A stretch of DNA of 64,000 nucleotides from an uncultured Actinomycetes bacterium (GTDB taxonomy: Bacteria > Actinomycetota > Thermoleophilia > RBG-16-64-13), in contig CAIQPS010000080.1 in the NCBI GenBank assembly GCA_903873715.1, positions 1 through 64,000 on the forward strand, given 5' to 3'. Positions 45,448 to 55,109 of this stretch are shown here, piece by piece (positions within the stretch are counted from its first letter, which is position 1; each line of letters begins with the position of its first letter). A model generated the notes under the pieces. The model did no database searches, was not told the DNA's origin, and saw only the letters and a list, made by a program, of their open reading frames with translations. A program made the position numbers and the translations under genes.

Positions 45448-45513
45448 CGTCGATGAGAGGTTTTCCGGGCCAGGAGCGGGGAATAAAATCCCTGTCAGGC
45501 GGCCTGCCCAAAA

Positions 45514-45543
45514 CTTGACACTAAGCCACTCAGATTTTATACT
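45514..45543 (+). promoter_or_regulatory. dnaK promoter TTGACA-N17-TATACT overlapped by a HAIR-like HspR operator
   Basis: CTTGACA-ctaagcc-ACTCAGA compared with CTTGAGT-N7-ACTCAAG; -10 TATACT at 45538-45543. Confidence 0.75.
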
Positions 45544-49856: not shown

Positions 49857-49930
49857 CGGGGTGCCCGGGGAAAGCGCGATAGAGTAGATGGACTATCATG
49901 GCAGCACCAACCCGCGGGGAAGAGACGAAG

Positions 49931-50347
49931 ATGCCATTTGAGGACAAACTCAGACCGGTCTTCATGATCTCGGTGGCAGCCGAGCTGGCCGAGATGCACC
50001 CCCAGACACTGCGCATGTACGAGCGCCGGGGGCTCATCCGCCCGCGCCGTTCGTCAAAGAGCACCCGCCTCTATTCCCTCGCCGACGTGGAGCGTCTGCG
50101 CCGCATCCAGCAGTTGGTGGCCGAGTGCGGCCTCAACCTGGCCGGAGTCGAACGGGTCCTGCAGATGGAAGAGCAGATGGAGACCATGCAGCGTCGCCTC
50201 GACCAGTTGCAGGCCCAGATGGACGCGCTGGCGGCGCAGGCCCGGGAAGAGCTCGAGGCGGTCCACCGCAGCTACCGCAAGGAACTGGTGCCGATCTCCA
50301 ACTCCGGCCAAGTCATCGTGATCACCGAGAAGCGGCGCGGCCGGTGA
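49931..50347 (+). CDS. hspR: MerR-family heat-shock regulator HspR
   Basis: MISVAAELAEMHPQTLRMYERRGLIRPRRSSKSTRLYSLADVERLR; directly follows dnaJ. Confidence 0.9.
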   Translation: MPFEDKLRPVFMISVAAELAEMHPQTLRMYERRGLIRPRRSSKSTRLYSLADVERLRRIQQLVAECGLNLAGVERVLQMEEQMETMQRRLDQLQAQMDALAAQAREELEAVHRSYRKELVPISNSGQVIVITEKRRGR

Positions 50348-51040: not shown

Positions 51041-51067
51041 TTGGCACTCTCACCCAGCGAGTGCCAA
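51041..51067. promoter_or_regulatory. CIRCE-like HrcA operator TTGGCACTC-N9-GAGTGCCAA
   Basis: Perfect 9-bp inverted repeat with 9-nt spacer; consensus is TTAGCACTC-N9-GAGTGCTAA. Confidence 0.7.
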
Positions 51068-51073
51068 AAGTGC

Positions 51074-51102
51074 GTGACGAGCGGCTCGCCATCCGCTATA
51101 AT
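51074..51102 (+). promoter_or_regulatory. Promoter GTGACG-N17-TATAAT upstream of the zinc-ribbon gene
   Basis: Read directly; 34 nt before TTG at 51136. Confidence 0.6.
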
Positions 51103-51135
51103 CTCTGAGCTATCACCGTAGGAGGAAGAAGGGCC

Positions 51136-51462
51136 TTGCCTACTTACGAATACAGATGCCTCTCGTGCGATCATCAGTTCGAGCGCTTCCAGCGCATGTC
51201 GGACGATCCCGTGAAGGAGTGCGAAGTCTGCGGGGAGCCGGTCAAGCGCCTGCTCTTCCCGGTTGCCGTGCACTTCAAGGGCAACGGCTTCTACAGCACG
51301 GACTACGCCAAGAAGAACACCATCGGGACGCCCGGCACCAGCACGGCCAACGGCGGCGGTTCCGACTCCACCGCATCCGCCAAGGACGGCGGCTCCGAGC
51401 CGGCCAAGGCGCCGGAGGCCAAAAAGGCCGAGCCGGCAGCCACCACCTCCAAGAACGACTGA
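51136..51462 (+). CDS. FmdB-type zinc ribbon protein
   Basis: MPTYEYRCLSCDHQFERFQRMSDDPVKECEVCGEPVKRL; TTG start behind GGAGGAAG. Confidence 0.85.
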   Translation: MPTYEYRCLSCDHQFERFQRMSDDPVKECEVCGEPVKRLLFPVAVHFKGNGFYSTDYAKKNTIGTPGTSTANGGGSDSTASAKDGGSEPAKAPEAKKAEPAATTSKND

Positions 51463-51478: not shown

Positions 51479-52359
51479 ATGACCGGCAGCAGGGACTGTG
51501 AGCTGGTCGCGTTCGGCTGTAGCCGCCCCCTTATCGTCCTCACGAACGACGACGGCGTCACCTCGCCTGGGCTCAGCGCGCTCAAGGCCGCCCTCGACCC
51601 GCTCGGCGACGTCCGGATAGTCGCTCCCGACCAGAACCGCTCAGGCGCCGCCCGCAGCATCACCATGCATGCGCCGCTCTGGGTCGAAGAGGTGCCGCTG
51701 CTCGACGGCAGCATCGCCTACAGCACCGACGGCACCCCCGTGGACTGTGTCCGCATGGCGGCTCTCGGCCTGCTCGACCGCGCGCCCGATCTCATCGTCT
51801 CGGGCATCAACCTGGGCGAGAACCTCGGCGACGACATCACGTATTCGGGGACGGTCGCCGCGGCGTTCGAGGGGATCATGCTGGACATCCCCGCCATCGC
51901 GATGTCGGCCCAGGGATATCACCCCGGATACGATCTGAGCGTCCCGGCCCGGTTCGCCCGGCGCCTGGTGGCGCTCGTCCTGGAGAAGGGCTTCCCGGCC
52001 AAGACGGTGCTCACCGTCAACGTGCCCGACCGGCGCTGGGAGGACCTGCGCGGCACCCGCCTGACCACCCTCGGCCGGCGCATCTACGGCGACAAGGTGG
52101 AGCACCGGGCCACCAGTGGCAACCGCCGCCAATACCACATCTACAACGACGACCTGGGGTTCCATCACGCCCCGGGCACCGATTTCGAGGCAGTCTCCGA
52201 AGGCTACGTGTCGGTGACGCCGCTGCACTTCGATCTCATGTCCCACGACGCGCTCGACCGGCTCCGCTCCTGGGAGGGCGCGCTGGGCGGCGACAATCCG
52301 GAAGCCGGCGCCCCCGGGGCCGCCGCGCTCGAGGGCCCCGACCAAGGAGGCCAAGCCTG

Positions 52360-52360
<1 letters not shown>
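51479..52360 (+). CDS. surE: 5'-nucleotidase SurE
   Basis: IVLTNDDGVTSPG, APDQNRSGAARSIT, VSGINLGENLGDDITYSGTV. Confidence 0.93.

Positions 52361-55109
<2,749 letters not shown>

Follow-up and report, generated by a model that had tools for sequence, protein, structure and literature searches.

The question raised by this locus is whether a dyad of the CIRCE type, located in the genome of an uncultured member of the Thermoleophilia before a gene for a zinc-ribbon protein of the FmdB family, is an operator of the repressor HrcA, and which genes such an operator would serve. The whole stretch of 64 kb in which the dyad occurs is referred to here as the window. Our answer, to which we give a probability of about 87%, is that the dyad is an HrcA operator, by which a redox-activated chaperone of the Ruc type (FmdB family) is placed under the same control as groES-groEL; the features of the window that are concerned in this reading are collected in Table 1.

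Table 1. Positions of the putative HrcA operator, its promoter and the neighbouring genes in the window.
Feature	Position	Strand	Remarks
hspR, end of the dnaK-hsp20-grpE-dnaJ-hspR cluster	49898..50347	+	NF047375
CIRCE-type operator, putative HrcA site	51041..51067	+	TTGGCACTC-N9-GAGTGCCAA; kept at orthologs
Sigma-A type promoter-like site GTGACG-N17-TATAAT	51074..51102	+	10 of 12 to consensus
FmdB-family zinc-ribbon gene, Ruc-type	51136..51462	+	Cys 8, 11, 29, 32; hydrophilic 59-residue tail
surE	51479..52360	+	16 bp after the end of the ruc-like gene; may be co-transcribed with it
HAD-family hydrolase gene	52360..53004	+	overlaps the surE stop codon
ligA (NAD-dependent DNA ligase)	53016..55109	+	11 bp after the HAD gene; last of the possible unit

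The probable operator and its counterpart at groES

The dyad at 51041-51067 reads TTGGCACTC-TCACCCAGC-GAGTGCCAA, i.e. two 9-bp arms that are close to the CIRCE arms TTAGCACTC and GAGTGCTAA and perfectly complementary to each other, separated by a 9-bp spacer, just as an earlier note on this DNA had described it. It is the single match to TTRGCACTC-N9-GAGTGCYAA with up to 3 mismatches in the 64 kb window, where shuffled sequence is expected to give 0.03 such matches. In the whole assembly (3.33 Mb, 169 contigs, 96.9% complete), exactly two perfect CIRCE sites occur: this one and the site at C14:2141, which is followed by groES and groEL and has identical arms. Each arm departs from CIRCE by one symmetric change, present in the groES site as well; the compensatory change that the earlier note had singled out is real, but it is not peculiar to this dyad, as the TTGG/CCAA form of the arms is found at both sites of the genome and in most relatives. 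Because both sites share this form, the variant letter is the normal operator of the lineage and no mark of a divergent target.

The regulator is encoded in the same genome (hrcA, C13:6486-7541, TIGR00331 E 1.3e-75), with a second dnaJ 3' of it. The earlier note had held that HrcA control would fall if the genome had no hrcA, or if its groE promoters carried an unrelated operator; hrcA is there, and the arms of the groES operator are the same. The dyad is very probably a real HrcA binding site. The region upstream of hrcA contains no CIRCE within 3 mismatches, and, in contrast to many hrcA genes, that of this genome is apparently not subject to autoregulation.

Some further observations concern these loci. 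The hrcA gene (L006 6486-7541) is located directly after a hemW-like gene. At groES, a half-degenerate second CIRCE overlaps the -35 of the promoter (L004 2199-2225), with a similar arrangement in G009 and G014; two HrcA dimers may therefore be bound at groES. In two members of the window's family, G003 and G008, a third CIRCE (L044 3074 and L053 3035) is located away from both groES and the ruc-like gene.

Conservation of the operator in Thermoleophilia

The conservation set comprises the FmdB gene and its upstream region from relatives, which are not independent samples, with the best CIRCE-like 27-mer taken within 250 bp. The mismatch counts of these 27-mers fall into two separate groups, of 0-3 (39 genomes) and 6-10 (57 genomes), and only 0.02% of shuffled upstream regions contain a 27-mer with 3 mismatches or fewer. 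In all readable genomes of the window's family (17/17; one more has an N gap there), the ortholog follows a CIRCE with 0-3 mismatches, and the same is true of 17/17 genomes of a second family and of scattered members of three others. Within the window's family, identity is 94% in the arms, 35% in the 9-bp spacer and 27-30% in the flanks; by this measure only the operator is kept, and the site is under selection. One family member, 'Thermoleophilia bacterium isolate Chersky_299' (L228), is identical to G006 in the 27-mer and in the first 60 residues.

Three families of the class are devoid of the site though they have hrcA, and HrcA control of the gene is therefore not universal. An explanation of the missing site by the absence of hrcA was considered and rejected, nearly all of these genomes having the gene; since hrcA was found in 96/99 relatives, the site marks membership of the regulon, not the presence of the regulator.

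The probable Ruc-type gene

The product of the gene at 51136-51462 matches the profiles PF09723 (E 9e-17) and TIGR02605 (E 1.5e-18), in agreement with the FmdB-type zinc ribbon recognised in the earlier note. Several of its features are those of Ruc: an N-terminal zinc ribbon CxxC-N17-CxxC; a hydrophilic, low-complexity C-terminal tail of 59 residues with 7% VILMFWY, the disorder of which is judged from composition only; and the MPTY-Y start and the FKG motif. Beyond cysteines and motifs, identity to Ruc is modest (6/18 and 4/18 in the fragments compared, which for Ruc were read from Cys-to-Ser primers, so that its cysteines are counted as mismatches). In the small protein Ruc, i.e. Rv0991c of M. 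tuberculosis, a zinc ribbon (Cys 8, 11, 29, 32) is joined to a disordered tail; on oxidation, zinc is released and the protein becomes active as a chaperone, and in this oxidised form it assists DnaKJE (PMC7448276). The ruc gene is directly repressed by HrcA along with the Hsp60/Hsp10 genes (PMC7448276; PMC8557902), and both a temperature of 45 C and mutation of hrcA strongly increase its expression (PMC7448276). Our literature search found no paper on FmdB together with HrcA, nor on HrcA in Thermoleophilia. On these likenesses, the gene of the window most likely belongs to the Ruc type and is controlled by HrcA, and by analogy its product would be a chaperone.

In one Thermoleophilia family, we have observed relatives of Ruc/FmdB without any cysteine, with a CIRCE (0-2 mismatches) located 25-45 bp before a cysteine-free copy in 15 of the genomes checked: G031, G046, G081, G084 and G098 (L093, L108, L138, L141, L154), and L279, L280, L286, L287, L289-L292, L294 and L296. 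Since Ruc with Cys-to-Ser changes is active without oxidation (PMC7448276), these relatives may be chaperones controlled by HrcA alone.

Downstream genes

The earlier note had proposed a unit of the zinc-ribbon gene, surE, the HAD gene and ligA. Such a unit is plausible from the tight spacing on the same strand, and no terminator-like site occurs on the + strand between these genes, so that some read-through from the ruc-like gene into surE, the HAD gene and ligA is likely; its order, though, is retained by only some members of the window's family. In roughly half of this family, surE starts approximately 1.7-1.9 kb after the start of the ruc-like gene, instead of 0.35-0.5 kb, which leaves room for another gene, while outside the family the linkage of the ruc-like gene with surE mostly fails. 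Because the order of surE, HAD gene and ligA is only partly kept, the constant target is the ruc-like gene.

Position of the operator and alternative readings

The promoter-like site that had been noted just 3' of the dyad is borne out (Table 1), and in the window's family its -10 is conserved, while its -35 is not. With transcription starts inferred from the -10, the operator occupies approximately positions -68 to -42; the whole of it lies 5' of the -35 hexamer, which is not where a repressor acting by blockage would usually bind. The usual position of CIRCE is just after the -10, and this is where the groES operator of the window's family starts, at a TTGACA-type promoter. From the downstream edge of CIRCE to the -10 of the ruc-like gene, the distance in the window's family is either 28-31 bp (8 genomes) or 41-42 bp (9 genomes), a step of approximately 12 bp, near one helical turn; in most members of the second family the edge is located 16-21 bp before the -10, over or beside the -35, and in a third family 10-11 bp before it.

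These distances bear on an alternative in which HrcA, bound upstream at helically phased spacings, contacts RNA polymerase and in this way represses transcription, or even activates it, without blocking the promoter as at groES. The two spacing classes, held despite the diverged intervening sequence, the distances that prevail in the second family and the lack of a conserved -35 would all agree with it; on the other hand, a single insertion may account for both classes, and to our knowledge HrcA is known only as a repressor. As the site at M. tuberculosis ruc works in repression (PMC7448276), we consider the polymerase-contact alternative unlikely. We rate slightly lower the idea that the heat response comes from another promoter, overlapping CIRCE, the TATAAT promoter giving basal expression only: the SigH and HrcA sites do overlap at M. 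tuberculosis ruc (PMC7448276), and the operator of the window does sit upstream of the TATAAT promoter, but no conserved promoter-like element is found upstream of or across CIRCE in the window's family, where conservation is confined to the -10 of the TATAMT promoter.

The neighbouring regulator HspR, which the earlier note had considered for cross-regulation, is very improbable as a controller or co-controller of the ruc-like promoter. Its gene does end 0.7 kb upstream of the dyad, as had been noted, with a gene for a B-box-type zinc protein in between, and members of the window's family retain the dnaJ-hspR neighbourhood; a HAIR-like site (CTTGAGT-N7-ACTCAAG, up to 3 mismatches) is nevertheless absent from the promoter of the 51136 gene, and the two weak HAIR matches in the 64 kb window are near the number expected by chance. 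That the dyad is a terminator, an RNA hairpin or a chance repeat with no regulatory role is hardly credible at all. Any perfect 9-bp dyad can fold, and a single strand of this one forms a stem; the fold, however, is no better than that of shuffles (z -1.55), the dyad has no T run and is not called by terminator prediction, and it is located 5' of the promoter and hence outside the mRNA made from it. Together with the conservation of the arms against diverged spacer and flanks, this has led us to reject a terminator or hairpin at 51041-51067; an Rfam search of the 64 kb window found no family.

A separate observation concerns the dnaK promoter of the window, the -35 of which is overlapped by CTTGACA-N7-ACTCAGA (45513-45533), 4/14 letters off HAIR; this is possibly a degenerate HspR (HAIR) site.

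The association beyond the class

GTDB species genomes were scanned for start codons that closely follow a CIRCE and open a reading frame with a Pro-x-Tyr N-terminus. The scan gave at least 119 matches, and among the matches listed 73 are FmdB-family proteins, located in Actinomycetes (Arthrobacter, Gordonia, Cellulomonas, Pseudonocardia, Actinoplanes) and in other groups: Acidimicrobiia, Chloroflexota (several Dehalococcoidia), Armatimonadetes (Armatimonadota) and Riflebacteria. With several phyla represented, the view of the zinc-ribbon gene as an odd HrcA target has to be dropped; as far as these matches indicate, the association of CIRCE with FmdB is common, and either ancient or repeatedly evolved.

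Two other groups of sites were seen. In Microbacteriaceae and Georgenia, where a methyltransferase-like gene follows a CIRCE, the arrangement was set aside as ordinary, a divergent groES being present at most loci checked. An rpoH-like (sigma-32) gene, too, starts approximately 30 bp after a perfect CIRCE in L166, L168 and L187 (Haliea/Halioglobus) and in L250 and L256; in these genomes, HrcA may control the heat-shock sigma factor.

Proposed control and comparison with known systems

In other bacteria with the CIRCE/HrcA system, it is established that GroEL keeps HrcA active. In the control that we propose for the window, active HrcA, with GroEL, would bind at 51041-51067 and lower transcription from the TATAAT promoter, repression being the sign of control that we infer; under heat or folding stress, HrcA would be titrated or lost and the ruc-like gene would be expressed, and some of its transcripts would probably extend into surE, the HAD gene and ligA, while oxidation would remove the zinc from the product, which would hold unfolded proteins and hand them to DnaKJE. 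HrcA control of the zinc-ribbon gene, as suggested in the earlier note, is strongly supported by the presence of hrcA, the identical arms at groES, the conservation at orthologs and the case of M. tuberculosis ruc (PMC7448276; PMC8557902). Control of a Ruc-type chaperone looks like an old, general second role of HrcA beside groESL; the M. tuberculosis case would be extended through whole families of Thermoleophilia, in which the operator is conserved, and to Chloroflexota, Armatimonadota, Riflebacteria and Actinomycetes. Two points depart from what is known in M. tuberculosis: the upstream position of the operator, and the occurrence of the same operator before relatives of Ruc that have no cysteines.

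With the HspR/HAIR regulon, the locus shares the neighbouring heat-shock cluster, but its promoter is without a HAIR-like site. The classical CIRCE/HrcA control of groESL is matched in the 9-9-9 operator, the arms of which are those found at groES in this genome; the target, however, is not a chaperonin gene, and the operator is located upstream of the -35, not after the -10. The closest counterpart is ruc (Rv0991c) of M. tuberculosis (Becker et al. 2020, PMC7448276). The two differ in neighbourhood, the gene of the window adjoining the dnaK-hspR cluster and preceding surE-HAD-ligA; in the placement of the operator, which in the window is upstream of the TATAAT promoter and in M. tuberculosis overlaps the SigH site; and in the window genome having no CIRCE at hrcA. 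They are alike in being targets of HrcA, demonstrated for ruc and predicted for the window, in the control shared with the Hsp60/Hsp10 genes, in the FmdB-type zinc ribbon with Cys 8, 11, 29 and 32, in the hydrophilic tail of the disordered type and in a start codon other than ATG.
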